From positions 1 to 43,490 of the forward strand of contig JAUNHA010000019.1 of NCBI GenBank assembly GCA_030524135.1: a stretch of 43,490 bases of DNA. Reading direction: 5' to 3'. This DNA comes from Eubacteriales bacterium (GTDB lineage Bacteria > Bacillota > Clostridia > Lachnospirales > Lachnospiraceae). Positions within the stretch are counted from its first letter, which is position 1. The number at the start of each line of letters is the position of its first letter. Made by a program: the position numbers and the translations under genes. A model generated the notes under the pieces. The model ran no database searches, was not told the origin of the DNA, and saw only the letters and a list, made by a program, of their open reading frames with translations. Shown here in pieces: positions 28,125 to 37,206 of the stretch.

Positions 28125-28154
28125 TTGACATAAGGGTACAAAAGGATTTAAAAT
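28125..28154 (+). promoter_or_regulatory. Promoter of the SipW-type surface operon
   Basis: A perfect TTGACA (28125-28130) and TAAAAT (28149-28154) are 18 bases apart. The transcript would start near 28161 and have a leader of about 264 bases before the signal peptidase gene. Confidence 0.75.
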
Positions 28155-28166
28155 GAGCACACTTCA

Positions 28167-28218
28167 GGAAATGAAACGTCTTCATTTCCGGGGTGTGTTT
28201 CTTTATACACATCTTTTT
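28167..28218 (+). promoter_or_regulatory. Leader hairpins, possible attenuator, before the surface operon
   Basis: A perfect 9-bp stem (28167-28175 with 28181-28189) near the predicted transcript start is followed by a 6-bp stem (28193-28198 with 28205-28210) and then a CTTTTTC run (28213-28219). The second stem plus T run resembles a weak intrinsic terminator inside the leader. The rest of the 28086-28424 gap contains the 16-bp repeats listed separately and no convincing gene. Confidence 0.45.
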
Positions 28219-28311
28219 CATTTCACGGATGCACAAGACGCGTCCTCAGACGCTGCGGTTTGCGGCGTGTTTTTAAGACCGGTGCTTCATTGCCGGGTAT
28301 CATCAGGTTCA

Positions 28312-28375
28312 GATCAGATAAAATTAAGATCCAACAAAATTCAAATCCAACAAAATTCAGATCGGACAGAATAAC
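28312..28375 (+). repeat. Four imperfect 16-bp tandem repeats before the signal peptidase gene
   Basis: Units start at 28312, 28328, 28344 and 28360. The two central units differ in one base (GATCCAACAAAATTCA and AATCCAACAAAATTCA); the outer two share the ATC at positions 2-4 and the central A-rich core. They are AT-rich in GC-rich surroundings and lie 50-113 bases before the start codon. They could be a binding array for a regulator in DNA or RNA, or simple replication slippage. Confidence 0.7.
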
Positions 28376-28424
28376 TGCTGTCAGGAACGACGTGGTTATT
28401 TGCCGTCTGCAACAGGAGACTGCC

Positions 28425-28910
28425 ATGGAGAGGAACAGACCGGGACGGGCTTTTTTTCGCATGCTTACTTTTTTGATCAATATGGCTGCATTGCTGTTTG
28501 CGGCTGTGCTTCTTTGTTTTGCGCTTCTTCCGGGAATCGGTTTTTCCTTTGAAGAGGTGCTGAGCGAGAGCATGCGTCCGGCATTTTCCACTGAGGATCT
28601 TCTTCTATGTGATCTTCGGGAGCGGGAGCTTTCTGCCGGGGATATTGCCGTCTTTCAGAAGGGCGGGATGCGCATTTTTCACCGGGTCCTCGAAAAAACG
28701 CCTGAGGGGTACCGGACCGGAGGGGATGCAAACGGGGCGCCTGACGGATTTACTGTCAGGGCAGAGGAAATAGAAGGACGCTGTATCAGCGTGATCAGAG
28801 GCGGGAAGTATTTTCTCCTCTTTATCAGGTCACCTTACGTTTTTGCGGCCGCCGGCCTGCTGATCATTCTGCAGGGAATAGCCGGCCGTCTGCGGACGGA
28901 GGAAATATAA
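28425..28910 (+). CDS. SipW-type signal peptidase I
   Basis: The 161-residue protein has an N-terminal membrane segment (about 15-40), the catalytic Ser motif SESMRPAF near 49-56 and the strand MRIFHRVLE near 83-91. His stands where ordinary bacterial enzymes have the catalytic Lys, as in the ER/SipW type. A second membrane segment lies at the C terminus. In Bacillus SipW processes the matrix proteins TasA and TapA. Here the next gene encodes a TasA/CalY-like protein with a matching signal sequence. AGGAGA at 28414-28419 precedes the ATG; an open frame to 28260 runs through the tandem repeats and has no similarity. Confidence 0.87.
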   Translation: MERNRPGRAFFRMLTFLINMAALLFAAVLLCFALLPGIGFSFEEVLSESMRPAFSTEDLLLCDLRERELSAGDIAVFQKGGMRIFHRVLEKTPEGYRTGGDANGAPDGFTVRAEEIEGRCISVIRGGKYFLLFIRSPYVFAAAGLLIILQGIAGRLRTEEI

Positions 28911-28929
28911 TATCTGCGGGAAACCGCTG

Positions 28930-28953
28930 TGCCGGAAAACGGCAGGAAAGGAG
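28930..28953 (+). promoter_or_regulatory. Hairpin joined to the ribosome-binding site of the TasA-like gene
   Basis: A 5-bp stem (28930-28934 with 28940-28944, loop GAAAA) runs directly into AGGAAAGGAG (28944-28953), six bases before the ATG. The same arrangement occurs twice before the small gene at 39870. It may set the translation rate of this one cistron. Confidence 0.55.
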
Positions 28954-28959
28954 TTTGTC

Positions 28960-29736
28960 ATGCGACAGGAGAAGGAAATGAAGAAGGGGAAGCTACAGAA
29001 GAAGGGAGGGAGAAGAACGGGCAGCAAAGGACGCCTCAGGCAGACGGCTGTCGCGGCGGCGGTGCTGCTTGCCGCGGGAACGGCTGTCGGGGCCGGATAT
29101 GCGGCATTCTCTTCCAGAGGTGAAGCGGCTGAAAACGTATTTACGATTCAGGCAGGCGAAGCGGGCGGAGAGATCGAAAATGATAAAAACAAGGGAACCG
29201 GCGTGGTGGAGCCGGACTGGCCGACAGAGGATACGAACAACAACGGCGTTCCCGACCGCGCGGAAAATCTGCAGCCCGGATCGGTGGTCCCGAAAAATCC
29301 GAAGTTCGTGTCACCGCTCTCCTATGACGCATGGGTGGCGCTTAAGGTAGAGGTGCCTGCCGCTTCGTTCAGAATCGCCGGAGAGGATGCCGATGCCGTA
29401 CATGACTGCGTGACGCTGGAAAAACTGAATGAGGACGGCAGATGGGAGCTGCTTAACAGTACCGTTTCCAAAACAGAGGGAAAGAATTCCGTCTATTACT
29501 ATGGCTATAAGAGCATCGTAAAGGGAAAACAGAAAGGTGAGACGAAGGGCGGCGAAACGAGTTATCTGTTTCAGAACATCCGGGTTCCGGACATTACTTC
29601 TCTCAGCCTTAAGGCGGATGGAACCGGATTTTCGGGAAGCGTAAAGGTGACGCCTTATGCAGTGCAGGCAGAAGGCTATGAAAACGTACAGGCAGCACGC
29701 GGGATCCTCATGGAGGTTGCGGAAATAAAGGGGTGA
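28960..29736 (+). CDS. TasA/CalY-like exported protein with SipW-dependent-type signal
   Basis: The 258-residue protein has a long basic N terminus, a hydrophobic segment (about 29-50) and the sequence YAAFSSRGEAAENVFTIQAG. This fits the SipW-dependent signal pattern (AxFxD/S...NxFTxG) seen in TasA and camelysin. A stretch DTNNNGVPDRAE near residue 90 looks like a Ca-binding loop. The rest is predicted beta-rich, with PLSYDAWVALKVEVP typical of TasA-type sandwiches. It probably forms a surface fibre or matrix subunit after cleavage by the peptidase encoded 49 bases upstream. No LPXTG motif is present. The assignment rests on signal type, size and neighbourhood. Confidence 0.72.
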   Translation: MRQEKEMKKGKLQKKGGRRTGSKGRLRQTAVAAAVLLAAGTAVGAGYAAFSSRGEAAENVFTIQAGEAGGEIENDKNKGTGVVEPDWPTEDTNNNGVPDRAENLQPGSVVPKNPKFVSPLSYDAWVALKVEVPAASFRIAGEDADAVHDCVTLEKLNEDGRWELLNSTVSKTEGKNSVYYYGYKSIVKGKQKGETKGGETSYLFQNIRVPDITSLSLKADGTGFSGSVKVTPYAVQAEGYENVQAARGILMEVAEIKG

Positions 29737-29741
29737 TCAGA

Positions 29742-31367
29742 ATGAAAACCAGAGCTGCCGCGGGAAGCATTTGCCTGATTCTGCTGCTTGGAAGCAGGGC
29801 ACCGCTCACTGTGTTTGCGGGAACCGGGGGACTTGGCGCAGGTGCGAAGGCGAGACTTTTTACAGGCGGTGTACAGGCGGAGCTTCAGATCGAAACGGAT
29901 GAGAGCGCAGAGCGTCTGCAGCCGGGAGGCAGCGCCTGCTACCGCATGACTTTGACAAATCAGAAAAAACGGGCCTGGGTGAGGGTAAAACTGGAACTTG
30001 AGGCGGGAGATGCACTCAGAGAGCAGCTTCCGGTCATCCTTAGCGGGATGTCCGGATATGCGGTGATGCGCGGCGATTATCTGTACTGCACAAAGGCACT
30101 TTCAGAGGGGGAAAGCATTCTTCTGTGCGAAGGGATAGAGATCCCGGATCTGACATTTGTACCGGAGGAGGAACACTTTCTGCTGCGGGCAGTACCGGAA
30201 GCCATGCAGGACAGCGGGCTTGTCCCGAATTTCTGGTCATCCGAGCCCTGGGAACAGATGCTGAGTTCAACGGTCTCGCCGGATGGAACGATCTTCCGGA
30301 GGACGGAGGGCGGACCTGTACTCAGATTTGAAAAAGAAAAACAGGTATTATCCGGCATCCTTTTTGAAGGCATGGGAGCGCTGATGCCGGGGGAAACTGT
30401 AACGGAAACCTTACAGATCGAAAATGCGGCAGGCGGTTCATACTATGTGAGGATGAAGCTGCATCCGGACGGGCTTTCCGATAAGGAACAGAAGCTTCTT
30501 TCTGCGCTGAAGCTCCGGATCGAACGGGACGGTGCAGTGCTTTACGAAGGGAGTATGCTGGATAATGCGCTGAAAAACGGGATCGGATTAGGCTACTGTG
30601 CAAAGGCATCGGAGAAGCTCGAGCTTACCGTAGAGGTTCCAAAGGATCTTTCCAATGCGCTTTCAGATACCGAAGCCTGTCCGCAGGTATCCTTTGAAGC
30701 AGTAAGACGCAGCGGCTCCGGCGGCTCCGGCTCAGGATCGGGAAGCAGACCATCTGGACAGAGCGGAAACAGCGGAATGGAAACCCTGATCTATGACGAG
30801 CCGGATGCTTCCGTAAAGAACGGGATCAGCGGAGGAACCTGGACACTTCTTGATGAAAAAACACACAGATGGAGTTATACGCTGCCCGGCGGAAAACAGG
30901 CGGCAGATGGATGGCTGTATCTGTTTAATCCGTATGCATCAGGCGGTCAGGGGGAGAATGCGTGGTTTAAATTCAATCCGGAAGCGGTTATGGAGTACGG
31001 ATGGATCCGCTCTGAAAACGGGAACTGGTACCACTGCAGCGACCGGACGGACGGGTCGCTCGGACAGCTCGAAAAGGGCTGGCACAGAGATGAGACGGCT
31101 TTGCAGGTCTACTATCTGGATCCGGTGAGCGGTATTATGCAGACGGGATGGAGAAAGATAGACGGAAGAGAGTATTATTTTGCGTCACTTGAGGATATTC
31201 CGGAGCAGACCTGGTATTATGAGGCGTTCGACAGGACGTTTGGTGAGACGTCGTTCGGGAAATGGATCTATAAACGGATCGGCGTGCGCTCTTATGGAAG
31301 CATGTACTGCAATGAAAGGACACCGGGCGGAAGCATGGTGGATGAAACGGGTGCAAAAAAGGTATGA
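29742..31367 (+). CDS. Large exported surface protein with TasA-like sandwiches and wall-binding repeats
   Basis: From this ATG the protein has 541 residues. A signal peptide (about 1-26) is followed by two beta-sandwich-like regions, about 35-190 and 200-325, each with the pattern LxPGxxxxxxLxxxN seen in TasA-type domains (LQPGGSACYRMTLTNQ; LMPGETVTETLQIEN). A Gly/Ser linker (about 330-350) leads to choline-binding-like wall repeats (WLYLFNPYASGG, MEYGWIRSENGNWYHC, GWRKIDGREYYF). It is probably a wall-bound anchor or assembly partner of the TasA-like protein. AAGGGGTGAT lies before the ATG; a GTG at 29733 is possible. The stop overlaps the next gene as ATGA. Confidence 0.75.
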   Translation: MKTRAAAGSICLILLLGSRAPLTVFAGTGGLGAGAKARLFTGGVQAELQIETDESAERLQPGGSACYRMTLTNQKKRAWVRVKLELEAGDALREQLPVILSGMSGYAVMRGDYLYCTKALSEGESILLCEGIEIPDLTFVPEEEHFLLRAVPEAMQDSGLVPNFWSSEPWEQMLSSTVSPDGTIFRRTEGGPVLRFEKEKQVLSGILFEGMGALMPGETVTETLQIENAAGGSYYVRMKLHPDGLSDKEQKLLSALKLRIERDGAVLYEGSMLDNALKNGIGLGYCAKASEKLELTVEVPKDLSNALSDTEACPQVSFEAVRRSGSGGSGSGSGSRPSGQSGNSGMETLIYDEPDASVKNGISGGTWTLLDEKTHRWSYTLPGGKQAADGWLYLFNPYASGGQGENAWFKFNPEAVMEYGWIRSENGNWYHCSDRTDGSLGQLEKGWHRDETALQVYYLDPVSGIMQTGWRKIDGREYYFASLEDIPEQTWYYEAFDRTFGETSFGKWIYKRIGVRSYGSMYCNERTPGGSMVDETGAKKV

Positions 31368-31825
31368 GAAAGGCAAAAAGCTGCAGGGCGGGAAAGAAAT
31401 TTACGCTGTTGATTACCGTTTTGTCTCTCGCGGGAGGTATTCCCCAGACGGCGGTCGCGGCGTACAGCCACGGGGGTACCGCAGAGAGCAATGCGTTTTC
31501 CCTGATGGCGGTGCTTGATTACGAGGCAGAACTCCGGCTTCATTTCCTTTCGGGAAAGGGGGAAAAGACGGAGGTGTTCTGGTATGAACGGACAGGAGAA
31601 ACCGAACGCGTTATAAAACAGGAGGTGATCTCACCCGGGGCAGCGGGGAAGGCAGCGGAAACGTCTCTTACGGTGCAGATCAGCGCATCCGACGGAGAGA
31701 AACGGTACCGCTGCGAACTGAAAAACGAGGCCGGTACCATTCGGTCCGAGTGCTTCGTACTGCGGGTCTCGGAGAATGGAAGTTCCGTCTTATGTGAGCG
31801 GGAGAAGGATTGGCAGACATCATGA
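31364..31825 (+). CDS. Small exported Ig-like protein of the surface operon
   Basis: The 153-residue protein begins with a basic stretch and hydrophobic segment with an AVAA site near 29-32, so it is exported. Residues about 45-140 look like one immunoglobulin-like fold: a VFWYERTG strand (about 71-78), and RYRCELKNEAGTIRSECFVL near the end, where Tyr-x-Cys is the classic Ig strand F. I do not recognise a specific family. Start and stop both overlap neighbours by four bases (ATGA), so it is coupled to both. Confidence 0.65.
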   Translation: MRKAKSCRAGKKFTLLITVLSLAGGIPQTAVAAYSHGGTAESNAFSLMAVLDYEAELRLHFLSGKGEKTEVFWYERTGETERVIKQEVISPGAAGKAAETSLTVQISASDGEKRYRCELKNEAGTIRSECFVLRVSENGSSVLCEREKDWQTS

Positions 31826-32799
31826 AAAGAAAAAGGAAAAGCATAGCAGAGCTTGCGAGAAGCTGCATTCTCCTGTGCGCGCTTCTTACGACAGTTATGT
31901 CCGCCGGCGGACAAACCGTATACGGGGCAGTCAAAGGCAGCGGAACAAAGGAGGATCCGGCAGCAGGCTCACCGGAGCTGAAAAACGGAGATACGATAGC
32001 GCCCGGGGCCTGGTTCTGGAAACTGAGCGGTGTGAATGGAAAGGAGCTTACGTTTCAGGCTGTATTTGAAGCGCGCCGCTACCAGCTTCTGTTTCATGCG
32101 AACGGAGGCAGATTTCCGGGTTCCGGTGAGACGAAGACGGTAAACGTCCGCTATAACGACGGCAGCGGAGCGGCGGCGGATACGATCGCGCTGCCGGAAA
32201 ATCCGGTTCGTGACGGATATCTGTTCTGCGGATGGTATCTGAAGGGAAATGACGCGGCCGGGAGTACGCTTCTTACGGAAAAAAGCCGGTATATGATCGC
32301 ACTGGAGGATGGCGAAGACCGGAAGAAGGCGGAAGTACAGGAGGAAAAAGCCGTTGCAAGGGCGCTTTGGAGAAAGGCCTCCGTCACGGAGCCCGATGAC
32401 GGAAACGGGCCGGATATCCCGCCCGACGGAAAAGATCCGGATGACAGCTGGTCGGAATCGCACAGCCGAAATCACGTGATCGAAAAACGACAGGAGGCGC
32501 CGGACAGAACGACCTACCGCAGACTTTACGGAAAAACGGCATGGCAGTACGGCCGCATCCTGTTTGACGCAAAGACAAGCGAGGCCGCGTCTTACCGCTG
32601 GTATGTAAACGGGAAGGAACAGAGCGGTACGGGAGAAACTTTTCTGCTCAGCGATATTAAAAGATCGCTGGACGGAGCGGAAGTACGCTGCGAGGTGCTG
32701 CTGACAGACGGAAAAACAAAGCTGACGCATAAAACACGGATCACGGTATATCATCTGCCGGAGATCACGGAAACCGGATTTTCCTTCCGGGCGGTCTGA
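31822..32799 (+). CDS. Exported protein with InlB B-repeat-like and Ig-like modules
   Basis: The protein (325 residues from this ATG) has a basic start and a signal peptide (about 10-37). Residues about 75-150 match the Listeria-Bacteroides (InlB B-repeat) module: LLFHANGGRFPGSG and ENPVRDGYLFCGWYLKG. A Pro/Asp-rich disordered linker (about 195-225) leads to an Ig-like C terminus with YRWYVNGKEQ and AEVRCEVLL. Such modules are found in adhesins. A TTG at 31810 is in frame, but GAGAAGGA and the ATGA overlap with the upstream stop favour 31822. Confidence 0.68.
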   Translation: MKRKRKSIAELARSCILLCALLTTVMSAGGQTVYGAVKGSGTKEDPAAGSPELKNGDTIAPGAWFWKLSGVNGKELTFQAVFEARRYQLLFHANGGRFPGSGETKTVNVRYNDGSGAAADTIALPENPVRDGYLFCGWYLKGNDAAGSTLLTEKSRYMIALEDGEDRKKAEVQEEKAVARALWRKASVTEPDDGNGPDIPPDGKDPDDSWSESHSRNHVIEKRQEAPDRTTYRRLYGKTAWQYGRILFDAKTSEAASYRWYVNGKEQSGTGETFLLSDIKRSLDGAEVRCEVLLTDGKTKLTHKTRITVYHLPEITETGFSFRAV

Positions 32800-32857
32800 A
32801 CTGGACCTCTGAGATTGGTATATCGGAACACAATTGATGTGAAGGGAGAAAAAAGCT

Positions 32858-34165
32858 TTGAAAATACATGCAAAACAGCAGAGGAAGGCGGTCGGGCAGC
32901 TGAAGATGTGCCGGGCGAATCTGTACAGAAGGACGGGGCTTGGTCTGATCTGCCTTGCAGTTCTGTTACAGAGTTTTTCCGTTCCCATGCGTATACAGGC
33001 AGCTTCCGGACAGGAGGGCAGGGAGACGGTTCCGGAGATGGATGAGAACCTCTCCGGCCTCTCTGCCACGCCTTCTGTGGCCTGGGCGACGCCATCCGGT
33101 GCGACAGTATCGGTTCCCATGCGCGAGAATGGAATCATGCCGCTCGGTGCGGGCAGCAGCGGAACTCCGGATTTTATTGTGGATCCCGGATATTTCGCGA
33201 ATTACGTAAAAAACCTGAAGCTTTCGATTGAGAAAAACACTGCCGGAAATCTGGTATTCCGTATCACCGGGCGCGTGAAGGGTCCCTACTGGGAAAGTGT
33301 GGGATATTATCATTATTACTGGGGGCCTTATATCGCATTTACGGCATACGGGAATAAAGCGGCGCCGGGACTGATTCCGAACGCAAACAATACAAACATA
33401 AAAAAATATCATATCATCCCGGATCTGCATCATGAGAGCAGTATGGGAAGCTATAAGCGCAGGGTATTCATCAATCAGACGGACATTCTGACCGCGCAGG
33501 ACACGGGCATTCTCGCGGCGGGAAAAAAGATCAGCATGTATCTCTCAGAGAGCCATGTTGACGGAGATAAGTGCAGATATCCAAAGACGGATATTGCGCA
33601 TGTCGTCGCCTATTCCGACAATACGCCGGCGGAGGATAAGGAGGGAAGCAGCGAATATGATCTGGATATCAGACTGGAGCTTTCCGACATACACGAGGCG
33701 GTCACAGGCGTTTATGTAGGTGCTTACGAATATGGTTATTACAGCGGAGCAGGGACAGACAAACAGGCAAACTACCGTGTCAGCAGCAGTATTCTGGACG
33801 GGAGCGAAGCCTTTGAAAGTGCCAAAAAAGGCAGGGTAAAACTGGAATTTCGTCCGGGCAGCGGAAGCGGAGGTCCGGGAACGGTGGAACTTACGGCGGG
33901 GAGTACGTATTCGCCCGCAGCGCCGACACCGCCCTACGGCAGCAGATTCCTGCGCTGGAACGGCTGGAACGGAACCGTTCCCCGAAGCAATACCGTATAT
34001 GATGCCGTTTATGAGGAAAACAGCTACCATCTGCGTTTTGATACCGCAGGCGGAAGCAGCGCGGCAGCAATCAGGAATGTGAGATATTCCGATAAAAGCC
34101 GGACCTTTCCGGTGTCGGTCAAAAAGGGCTATGAGCTTAAGGCGTGGAAATACACGGGAAGTTAG
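32858..34165 (+). CDS. Exported surface protein ending in an incomplete B-repeat
   Basis: The 435-residue protein starts with TTG, with AAGGGAG nine bases upstream. It has a signal peptide (about 24-48, ending RIQA) and a Ser/Thr/Pro-rich linker. A large domain (about 105-330) of unknown family follows; it begins DPGYFANYVKNLKLSIEK and has a cluster of Tyr and His. The end resembles InlB B-repeat sequence: RFLRWNGWNGTVP, YHLRFDTAGGSS, then KKGYELKAWKYTGS and stop. The last repeat seems to end before its normal final strand. This is the last gene of the surface operon; no terminator follows before the next promoter. Confidence 0.62.
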   Translation: MKIHAKQQRKAVGQLKMCRANLYRRTGLGLICLAVLLQSFSVPMRIQAASGQEGRETVPEMDENLSGLSATPSVAWATPSGATVSVPMRENGIMPLGAGSSGTPDFIVDPGYFANYVKNLKLSIEKNTAGNLVFRITGRVKGPYWESVGYYHYYWGPYIAFTAYGNKAAPGLIPNANNTNIKKYHIIPDLHHESSMGSYKRRVFINQTDILTAQDTGILAAGKKISMYLSESHVDGDKCRYPKTDIAHVVAYSDNTPAEDKEGSSEYDLDIRLELSDIHEAVTGVYVGAYEYGYYSGAGTDKQANYRVSSSILDGSEAFESAKKGRVKLEFRPGSGSGGPGTVELTAGSTYSPAAPTPPYGSRFLRWNGWNGTVPRSNTVYDAVYEENSYHLRFDTAGGSSAAAIRNVRYSDKSRTFPVSVKKGYELKAWKYTGS

Positions 34166-34174
34166 GACACAAAT

Positions 34175-34204
34175 TTGACAGCCGCCGTTTCGGAACGCTA
34201 TAAT
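34175..34204 (+). promoter_or_regulatory. Consensus promoter of the histidine kinase gene
   Basis: TTGACA (34175-34180) and TATAAT (34199-34204) are both perfect, 18 bases apart. The transcript would have a leader of about 100 bases containing a CTGCCGCGGCAG palindrome near 34289. Confidence 0.85.
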
Positions 34205-34315
34205 GATTTGCAGAAAAACCGGATCAGGCAGGACACAATTTAAACATAGGGAGCGGATATACTGCTTCTTATAGCTGAAAAGTGCCCTGCCGCGGCAGCG
34301 AAACGGAGTTTGCGG

Positions 34316-36004
34316 ATGAAACAGGCTGATTTAGAGAAGGCAGGCAGGGCGGAAAGGTCAGGCGGCTTTCGAATGAAAAATTCCATCAGGACGAGATTTA
34401 CGCTTATATTTATCGGAATTATGGCACTTGTTATTTTCGGCATGTATGCGATAAATAACTATTTCCTGGAAAAATACTATATGAATCAGATGGTAAAGGG
34501 GCTTCAGACGGCGTATGAGACGGTCGACCACCTGCTTACAGATCTGGAGAGCAGGGGCGAAACGCTCACCGAGGTGGTGAAGGCGGAGCTTGGACAATCG
34601 TCTGCCGACACATCGGCGGCTTCCGTTTTCCGGGAACTCAACGACAACTCCAATATCAATGTTGTGCTGATCGATGCGGACCATTCGACTGTTATATCGG
34701 CTTCCCGTGAAGGAAACTGGCTTCTGAAAAAGCTGGAGTTTTACCTTGACAACAGTGAAGCGATCAGAAACGGAGAACTTCCGGCTGAGGATATCATGGG
34801 GAACCCTGTCTCCGGTGAACATACAAATCCGGGACTGATCCCGAGGCCGATCGTGAAAAATGACAGATATTGCATCATGCAGTCGGTGGACTGGCGTTCC
34901 ATGTCGGCGTATCTCGAGAGCTGGGGATATCTTTCAGACGGGAAAACGACCTTCCTGATGTCCATGCCTGTGGCGCTCATTCATGACAGCGTGGCACTTA
35001 CCAACCGCTTTCTGATGATCGTGGGAATCGTACTTCTTCTTGCCGGAAGCGCGCTTGTCTATCTTGCGACGAATGCGATCACAAGACCGATCAATCATCT
35101 TGCCGGCATATCGGAGCGCATGACAAAGCTCGATTTTACGGCGCGGTATGCAGGACGCGAAAAGGACGAGATCGGTGTGCTCGGTCGCTCGATGAACACG
35201 ATGTCCGACCAGCTGGAAAAGACGATCGGAGAGCTGAAGACAGCCAACAATGAGCTGAAGCAGGATATCGATGAAAAAAACCGGATCGACGCAATGCGAA
35301 AGGACTTTATCGCAAATGTTTCCCATGAGCTAAAGACCCCGATCGCTCTGATACAGGGCTATGCGGAGGGACTCACCGAAGGCATGGCGGAAGACGCGGA
35401 CAGCAGGGATTATTACTGCAACGTCATTGCCGACGAGGCGCAGAAAATGAACAAGATGGTAAAGCAGCTGACGTCCCTTAATAATCTTGAGCTGGGAAAT
35501 GAAAGGGTGGAGTTTTCTCATTTTGATATCACGGCGCTGATCAGGAGCATTGTTGACGCGCAGCAGCTGATCATAAAAGACAGAGGCGTAAACCTGAGCA
35601 TAACAGGACTGACTGAGGCATACGTCTGGGCGGATGAGTTCAAGATCGAAGAGGTCATCACCAATTATTTCAACAATGCGCTCAATCATCTGGAGGGGGA
35701 CAAAAATATCCGTATCAGCGTTGAAGAGGAGGCGGATAAAAAACGGATCAGGATCGGCGTATACAATGACGGAGAGCCGATTCCGGAGGAGGATATCCCG
35801 CATCTTTGGGAGAAATTCTTTAAGGTGGATAAGGCGCGGACCAGAGAGTACGGAGGATCCGGCATCGGCCTTTCCATCGTAAAGGCGATCATTGAGTCGC
35901 ATGGGCAGGAATGCGGTGTTGAAAATCGTGAGCATGGCGTTTTTTTCTGGTTCACGCTTGATTCAGGCAACGGAAGTCTTGCGATTTCTGATGATCTGCG
36001 ATAA
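34316..36004 (+). CDS. Membrane sensor histidine kinase with HAMP domain
   Basis: From this ATG the protein has 562 residues. The order is a membrane helix (about 29-47), an extracellular sensor of about 180 residues, a second membrane helix (about 232-254), HAMP, a coiled region, then HisKA with the H-box SHELKTPIALIQGYAEGL (phosphoacceptor His337) and an ATPase domain (NYFNNALNHL, NDGEPIPEED, GGSGIGLSIVKAI). GGAG lies seven bases before 34316; an ATG at 34373 giving MKNSIRTRF is a credible alternative with a more typical N terminus. The best partner is the response regulator at 23234. The sensed signal is unknown. Confidence 0.9.
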   Translation: MKQADLEKAGRAERSGGFRMKNSIRTRFTLIFIGIMALVIFGMYAINNYFLEKYYMNQMVKGLQTAYETVDHLLTDLESRGETLTEVVKAELGQSSADTSAASVFRELNDNSNINVVLIDADHSTVISASREGNWLLKKLEFYLDNSEAIRNGELPAEDIMGNPVSGEHTNPGLIPRPIVKNDRYCIMQSVDWRSMSAYLESWGYLSDGKTTFLMSMPVALIHDSVALTNRFLMIVGIVLLLAGSALVYLATNAITRPINHLAGISERMTKLDFTARYAGREKDEIGVLGRSMNTMSDQLEKTIGELKTANNELKQDIDEKNRIDAMRKDFIANVSHELKTPIALIQGYAEGLTEGMAEDADSRDYYCNVIADEAQKMNKMVKQLTSLNNLELGNERVEFSHFDITALIRSIVDAQQLIIKDRGVNLSITGLTEAYVWADEFKIEEVITNYFNNALNHLEGDKNIRISVEEEADKKRIRIGVYNDGEPIPEEDIPHLWEKFFKVDKARTREYGGSGIGLSIVKAIIESHGQECGVENREHGVFFWFTLDSGNGSLAISDDLR

Positions 36005-36084: not shown

Positions 36085-37206
36085 ATGACAAAAATAGATA
36101 TTATCTCCGGGTTTCTGGGAGCCGGAAAAACGACATTTATCAAAAAGCTTCTGGGAGAGGCACTGAACGGAGAAAAGGTTGTGCTGATCGAAAATGAATT
36201 CGGTGAGATCGGTATTGACGGCGGCTTCTTAAAGGATGCCGGAATTGAAATAAGAGAAATGTCCCAGGGATGCATCTGCTGCTCTCTGGTAGGAGATTTT
36301 GAGACAGCGCTTAAGGAAGTAATTGAAAAGTATGAGCCGCAGCGAGTGATCATTGAGCCGTCAGGCGTTGGAAAGCTTTCCGATGTCATGAAGGCAGTGC
36401 AGGATGCTTCTGCAAATCTCCCGGTACAGCTCAATTCGGCAGTTACCATCGTGGATGCCAACAAATGCAAAATGTACATGAAGAACTTTGGCGAGTTCTT
36501 CAACAATCAGGTGCAGTATGCGGGCACCGTTGTCCTGAGCCGCGCGGATGTGGCACCGGAGGAAAAGCTTGATAAGGACGTGGAGCTGATCCGCAGCATT
36601 AACGACAAGGCGGAGATCATTACAACGCCGATCACGCAGTTATCCGGTGAAAAGCTGCTTTCCGTTATGGAAAAGCACGATGATATGACGGAGAAGCTTA
36701 TGGCTGAGGCAAGAGCCGCGGCAGAGGCGCATGCGCATGAACACCATCACCACCATGATGAGGAAGAAGAGCACGAGCATCATCATGAGCATGGAGAGCA
36801 CTGCGGCTGCGGATGCGGCGGACACCATCACCACCATGATGAGGAAGAGGCGCATGAGCACCATCATGAGCATGGGGAGCACTGCGGCTGCGGATGCGGC
36901 GGACATCATCACCACCATCATGCGGATGAGGTATTTACGTCCTGGGGCAAGGAGAATGTGCCCCCGATCAAAAAGGAAAAGCTCGAAAAGCTGCTTGAGG
37001 AGCTTTCTGAGGGGCATACTTACGGACAGATCCTGCGAGCAAAGGGCATGCTGCATTCTGCAGATCAGGAAGGCGCGTGGTATTACTTTGACCTCGTACC
37101 GGGAGAGTATGAGATCAGAGACGGTGAAGCAGAGTATACCGGAAAGCTTTGCGTGATCGGAAGCTCTCTTGATGAGGACGCACTTACAAAGGCATTTATG
37201 GAATAA
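36085..37206 (+). CDS. CobW/G3E-family GTPase with His/Cys-rich repeats
   Basis: The 373-residue protein is a COG0523-type metallochaperone GTPase. Walker A GFLGAGKT is at 9-16, the switch ENEFGEIGID near 36-45, and the metal motif CICC at 63-66. Residues about 214-283 form an extreme His/Glu/Cys region made of two 27-residue repeats and part of a third, each with a His run, a DEEE segment and GEHCGCGCGG. A C-terminal CobW domain follows. Family members deliver zinc, cobalt or nickel or act in metal scarcity. The His/Cys region would bind several metal ions. It follows a terminator and has a strong AAGGAGG; the next gene starts 12 bases later. Confidence 0.92.
   Translation: MTKIDIISGFLGAGKTTFIKKLLGEALNGEKVVLIENEFGEIGIDGGFLKDAGIEIREMSQGCICCSLVGDFETALKEVIEKYEPQRVIIEPSGVGKLSDVMKAVQDASANLPVQLNSAVTIVDANKCKMYMKNFGEFFNNQVQYAGTVVLSRADVAPEEKLDKDVELIRSINDKAEIITTPITQLSGEKLLSVMEKHDDMTEKLMAEARAAAEAHAHEHHHHHDEEEEHEHHHEHGEHCGCGCGGHHHHHDEEEAHEHHHEHGEHCGCGCGGHHHHHHADEVFTSWGKENVPPIKKEKLEKLLEELSEGHTYGQILRAKGMLHSADQEGAWYYFDLVPGEYEIRDGEAEYTGKLCVIGSSLDEDALTKAFME
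36742..36927 (+). repeat. 81-bp in-frame tandem repeat encoding metal-binding units
   Basis: Copy one runs 36742-36822, copy two 36823-36903, and a partial third begins at 36904. The period of 81 bases keeps the frame and encodes 27-residue His/Glu/Cys units. The copies differ by a few bases, so copy number could vary between strains. Confidence 0.9.

Follow-up and report, generated by a model that had tools for sequence, protein, structure and literature searches.

A SipW-type gene cluster of a Lachnospiraceae bacterium as a candidate export and anchoring system for a TasA-type surface fibre

The window analysed here is a stretch of 43,490 nucleotides (contig JAUNHA010000019.1, positions 1 to 43,490) from a Eubacteriales gut bacterium of the family Lachnospiraceae (assembly GCA_030524135.1); it is contig 69 of a draft genome of 2.23 Mb that is 92% complete. 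Six genes between positions 28425 and 34165 of the + strand, named here SipW and P2 to P6, are proposed to export and anchor a TasA-type donor-strand surface fibre in which P2 would form the shaft, P4 the starter and P3 the base, with P5 and P6 as accessory parts. A probability of about 0.6 is attached to this reading. What sequence comparison supports directly is the identity of SipW and of P2, the homology of the P3 body and the layout of P4.

28425 to 28910, + strand: SipW-type signal peptidase with Ser49/His86, 161 amino acids (alignment, family models)
28960 to 29736, + strand: P2, putative major fibre subunit of the TasA/BsaA class of SipW substrates, 258 amino acids (profile homology)
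29733 to 31367, + strand: P3, candidate base or anchor protein, two TasA-like sandwiches and choline-binding repeats (profiles, structural comparison)
31364 to 31825, + strand: P4, SipW-type N-terminus with a P2-like strand and an immunoglobulin-like (Ig-like) domain, a TapA-like layout, 153 amino acids (N-terminal comparison, domain matches)
31822 to 32799, + strand: P5, B-repeat (PF09479) and, judged by eye, an Ig-like segment at the C-terminus; conventional signal peptide; 325 amino acids from an ATG (domain scan)
32858 to 34165, + strand: P6, secreted protein whose C-terminal B-repeat-like module is weak, 435 amino acids from a TTG (domain scan)

In the proposed mechanism SipW would cleave P2 and P4, and the N-terminal strand of P2 freed in this way would complete the sandwich of the next P2, extending the fibre. 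P4 would donate the first strand, the role of TapA, and its Ig-like domain should need no partner strand. P3 would be exported via an ordinary signal peptidase and take a fibre end into its own sandwiches, and its repeats would hold the fibre on the cell surface in place of a transmembrane, probably sortase-type, tail; P5 and P6 would be accessory or adhesive parts. The model is Bacillus, for which both steps are established: its TasA fibres assemble by donor-strand exchange (PMC9674648) and its TapA donates a first strand (PMC10151520).

The six genes are real and likely form one operon, as the first-pass annotation of this DNA had proposed. Their successive junctions are a gap of 49 nucleotides, a GTGA overlap, two ATGA overlaps and a gap of 58. 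The expected conservation in relatives was also found: of the 25 genomes of the genus that were searched, 11 have the whole set of six classes. The 11 sets occupy two sites. In the window and in a second genome, G018, the set lies between a MATE gene and a histidine kinase gene; in the other nine (G001, G002, G003, G009, G012, G015, G019, G023 and G024) it stands beside a gene that we take from its sequence to be uvrB, in the order P3-SipW-main subunit-P4-P5-P6.

The signal peptidase and the main subunit

Ser49 and His86 are invariant in all 15 aligned members of the peptidase family, that of the window included, so that the replacement of Ser/Lys by Ser/His, read at first from the letters alone, holds. 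The window peptidase satisfies TIGR02228 with 53.7 bits and reaches 33 bits against the NCBIfam model SigPepSipWBacil, whose equivalog cut-off is 190 bits; the models place it as a relative of the Bacillus SipW equivalog and not as that equivalog itself.

Profile homology assigns P2 to the TasA/BsaA class of SipW substrates, as a homologue lying outside the curated models. A profile of nine SipW substrates from other genera, with P2 excluded, finds P2 at E=4.2e-22, a value that tests mutual similarity and not blind discovery, since the nine had themselves come from a P2-based profile; besides P2, among the matches listed, a single open reading frame (ORF) of the window appears, at E=0.41. When P2 and its relative in G018 (65%) are set alone against the class, hhalign returns a probability of 99.5% (E=3e-22, 177 columns). 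That P2-based profile, A19, built from P2 and three relatives, was searched against 397 sampled genomes of the family and matches proteins in 39 of them, the window's own counted. Eight class members found with A19 were scanned with curated models: TIGR04090 is matched by five (8e-12 to 2e-5, none reaching its cut-off), four of these five also match TIGR04088, above its cut-off, and the three nearest to P2 (L116, L117 and L119) match neither.

The fibre interpretation has its weak points. P2 alone matches no Pfam family and neither SipW-substrate model of NCBIfam (TIGR04088/TIGR04090, none at E<=1), a TIGR04088 search of the window's own genome gives no match, the AlphaFold model of P2 has a mean predicted local distance difference test (pLDDT) score of 34, and the B-repeat of P6 is sub-threshold in the domain scan. 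Two of the checks that the first-pass annotation had named, TIGR04088 and AlphaFold of the 258-residue protein, thus brought no direct confirmation. Because a model of such low pLDDT is unusable, the fold of P2 is taken from homology. A sequence-based search of solved structures for the subunit classes returned nothing convincing, and P2 aligned directly to the subunit of the uvrB site reaches a probability of 10%, so that this comparison was set aside. By analogy, P2 would polymerise into filaments.

P4 as a candidate initiator

The N-termini of the 11 complete sets, read by eye, show sites of SipW type in P2 and P4, whereas those of P3, P5 and P6 are of the ordinary A-x-A kind. The single SipW-type signal noted earlier therefore stands for P2, but P4 has one as well, and its TapA-like layout had been overlooked. 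To compare N-termini, the mature 16-mer of P2 was slid along the first 100 residues of P3 to P6 of the same genome and scored against shuffles. The P2-P4 shuffle fraction is below 0.025 in seven of the 11 sets (0/2000 in the window, 0.018 in G018) and not significant in the other four (G019, G003, G015 and G023); among the 33 comparisons of P2 with P3, P5 or P6, none falls below 0.025 and three fall below 0.05. A leave-one-out hidden Markov model (HMM) of the P2 class ranks P4 above P3, P5 and P6 in 8/9 uvrB-site sets, but scores it hardly higher than P3 in the window (0.3 against 0.2 bits) and in G018 (0.6 against 0.4 bits). Within the window the N-terminus of P4 is second among the matches of the A19 profile (E=0.1), and a rough motif misses the P4 of the window.

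The Ig-like part of P4 gives weak sequence matches (I-set E=0.048, titin E=0.015); its counterpart in other sets, where P4 is longer, is the C-terminal portion (97%, E=4e-11). The N-terminal portion of the uvrB-site proteins shows a relationship to the main subunit (hhalign 94%). This stretch is gone from the P4 of the window and of G018, where a SipW-type N-terminus and an Ig-like domain remain. TapA, variously described as an anchoring protein, a nucleator and a chaperone, has the layout of a SipW-type strand plus an Ig domain according to PMC10151520.

P4 might instead be a minor adhesive subunit or a cap, whose N-terminus merely makes it a SipW substrate. The extra stretch of the uvrB-site proteins could sit inside a fibre, and the TapA model TIGR04087 finds no match in the window P4 and only one among 11 P4-class members (E=0.14). 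The reduction of P4 in the window and G018 to a TapA-like layout speaks for an initiator, and the reading as an adhesive subunit or cap is regarded as rather unlikely.

P3 and its possibly interchangeable tail

P3 consists of two sandwiches, at about residues 40-190 and 203-312, followed at about residues 366-544 by choline-binding repeats. The best non-repeat structural match of the second sandwich is TasA. Its relatives include 16 proteins from other genera of the family, termed tail-anchored bodies here. An HMM built from them finds P3 at E=8.9e-32 and no other ORF of the window at E<=10, and the SipW-substrate profile matches all 16 (5e-14 to 4e-4), chiefly in the first sandwich. All of them have sipW and one or more TasA-like genes less than 5 kb away, and such clusters of sipW, TasA-like and two-sandwich genes occur in 14 of the 397 sampled family genomes.

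The two groups differ in how they end. The tail-anchored bodies have a hydrophobic tail (16/16), mostly with a KTG-like motif (15/16), and no choline-binding repeats; window P3 is without such a tail, its top 17-residue mean being -0.15 as against 1.5 or more in all 16. The role of the tail-anchored body is probably cell attachment, and the repeats of P3 probably replace the membrane or sortase-type tail of these related base proteins; they would then bind the cell wall. Export of a fibre or matrix with a repeat-bearing anchor, as first suggested for this locus, is thus supported by the P2 profile, by the homology of P3 to the tail-anchored proteins and by the conserved gene set.

A sortase as a requirement of the system was rejected for the genus: G002, G019 and G023, each at least 95% complete, possess the set but gave no match to a sortase, in keeping with attachment through the repeats. 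Sortase matches number three in the window's genome, where a sortase may be present, and 14/25 genus genomes have one. For the tail-anchored form, 12 of the 14 genomes have a sortase, and the two without are less than 90% complete. The P3 repeats were also considered as the sign of a toxin and dropped as such, the matches to clostridial toxin repeats reflecting a shared repeat fold; scans of the operon proteins turned up no other toxin-like match.

The same repeats admit another arrangement, in which the fibre polymer is secreted as a matrix and P3 links it to polysaccharide, extracellular or of the host, instead of to the wall of the producing cell. Glucosyltransferases and other proteins that bind sugars carry comparable repeats (structural matches; the glucan-binding model TIGR04035 matches P3 at E=0.027), and BsaA polymers of Clostridium perfringens are described in PMC7395162 as mainly extracellular and suggested not to be tightly wall-bound. 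However, the hydrophobic tail of the homologous bodies makes cell attachment probable there, and the best solved relative of the P3 repeats is the pneumococcal choline-binding protein J; the matrix arrangement is judged unlikely. Less probable still is a loose operon in which SipW serves P2 (and P4) and the others are unrelated exported adhesins with no joint assembly: only P2 and P4 look SipW-dependent and the window-type P6 is weakly related to that of other sets, but 11 genomes retain the set, in two locations, and P3-type bodies lie near sipW and TasA-like genes in other genera.

Returning to the anchored fibre, a broader picture can be put forward tentatively, at slightly less than even odds. 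TasA-type donor-strand fibres of Lachnospiraceae would be held on the cell by a dedicated two-sandwich base protein, with a body that accepts the fibre and a tail that can be exchanged: sortase-type in several genera, choline-binding repeats in the present genus and a small number of others. With a TapA-like initiator encoded in this genus as well, the operon would comprise a starter, a shaft, a base and accessory modules and so be the Gram-positive equivalent of chaperone-usher pili.

P5 has one B-repeat above the cut-off, so that of the two proteins first credited with B-repeat-like modules only P5 is upheld by the domain scan. As a family-wide marker P5 was rejected: its full length is matched only in the window's own among the 397 genomes, and in the other 23 matching genomes the match spans no more than roughly half of the protein. 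The P6 proteins of the window and G018 show only a weak C-terminal match to P6 of the other sets, and the sixth position is equated across sets mainly by place, not by proven descent. In the uvrB-site P6 proteins (L044-L048, L050-L053) eight invariant Cys/His residues form a zinc-ribbon-like pattern in 9/9, which is not seen in window P6.

Known systems, conservation and gene neighbourhood

The kind of system is known already, from tapA-sipW-tasA and sipW-bsaABCRSD. With the Bacillus subtilis operon the locus shares a peptidase of SipW type, a subunit of the TasA class and another SipW-type protein with a similar N-terminus and an Ig-like domain (PMC10151520); in contrast to those three genes it has six, P3, P5 and P6 being without counterpart and P4 without a TapA-model match. 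The first-pass annotation had treated known systems as three-gene only, which does not hold: the C. perfringens operon has four secreted proteins, and it resembles the present one in beginning with sipW, after which come the genes of a BsaA-class subunit and of additional secreted proteins, with bsaB and bsaC supporting pellicle formation. That operon includes its own two-component system, whereas the kinase here has its own promoter, and no repeat-bearing protein is described in it; BsaB, BsaC and BsaD are likened by description only (all from the available part of PMC7395162). The B. cereus cluster sipW-calY1-bc_1280-calY2 likewise encodes one SipW with several related substrates and, in the accessible text of PMC10151520, names no repeat or B-repeat proteins; it too is likened by description only. 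Closest in layout are the tail-anchored clusters of other family genera, set apart by the end of the base protein.

A literature search found no paper on sipW/TasA-like/two-sandwich clusters of the family, and as far as it reached, these clusters and the exchange of their tail for choline-binding repeats are new. There is as yet no settled account of how cells retain TasA-type fibres; the operon names a candidate base protein, whose body occurs with two different tails, and the compact gene set would let initiation and anchoring be tested separately. The locus would also add uncultured Lachnospiraceae to the bearers of such fibres, this being the designation of all eight named records of genus relatives, four of which name goat, cattle or roe deer.

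Beyond the 11 complete sets, the contig ends after the first three genes of the set in G004 and G013. G011 and G020 both have a variant in which a B-repeat-bearing SipW-type protein and another secreted protein are encoded together with SipW and a P2 relative; in G011 a P3 relative follows, and the G020 contig stops before that place. No set was seen in nine genus genomes, incomplete drafts in which not all P3-repeat matches were opened; six of the nine (G005, G007, G010, G017, G021 and G022) lack a match to the peptidase model. In G014 a lone sipW-like gene occupies the uvrB place (L065 4741-5289), the other genes being missing there. G008 and G014 (L060, L061, L063) carry a SipW-like gene beside four tandem genes of about 260-320 amino acids with A-W-F/Y type signals, which is another multi-subunit SipW cluster.

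Three features frame the operon:

28125 to 28154, + strand: promoter-like site TTGACA-18-TAAAAT, likely operon promoter (promoter scan; place kept in G018)
28160 to 28424, + strand: leader folding into stable hairpins, of which those at 28190 and 28250 resemble terminators (fold z=-3.2; terminator scan)
34175 to 34204, + strand: consensus promoter of the downstream histidine kinase, likely operon end (promoter scan)

The region holds six promoter-like sites against a shuffle mean of 6.8, a count not above chance; the frame is therefore based on the two strongest sites and on the retention of the first in G018, where TTGACA and a -10-like stretch stand at the same place. The leader, which matches no Rfam family, lies between the likely promoter and sipW, and with its two terminator-like hairpins attenuation is possible.

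The downstream histidine kinase (34175-36004) was ruled out as an operon member, having its own promoter and 1e-60 matches in 24/25 genus genomes. In the five other kinase genomes opened besides G018 (G002, G005, G006, G017 and G021) the operon is not beside the kinase. The kinase adjoins a response regulator in G002, G005, G017 and G021, and has no adjacent regulator in the window or G018. In G006 (L109) the space between MATE gene and kinase contains no operon, but genes for giant surface proteins, a 4,326-residue ORF with a sortase-like match and a 1,210-residue ORF with a repeat-type end; the MATE/kinase interval is perhaps an exchangeable site for surface genes. Further downstream, the product of 36085-37206, presumably a CobW-like GTPase by its sequence, bears long histidine-rich runs.

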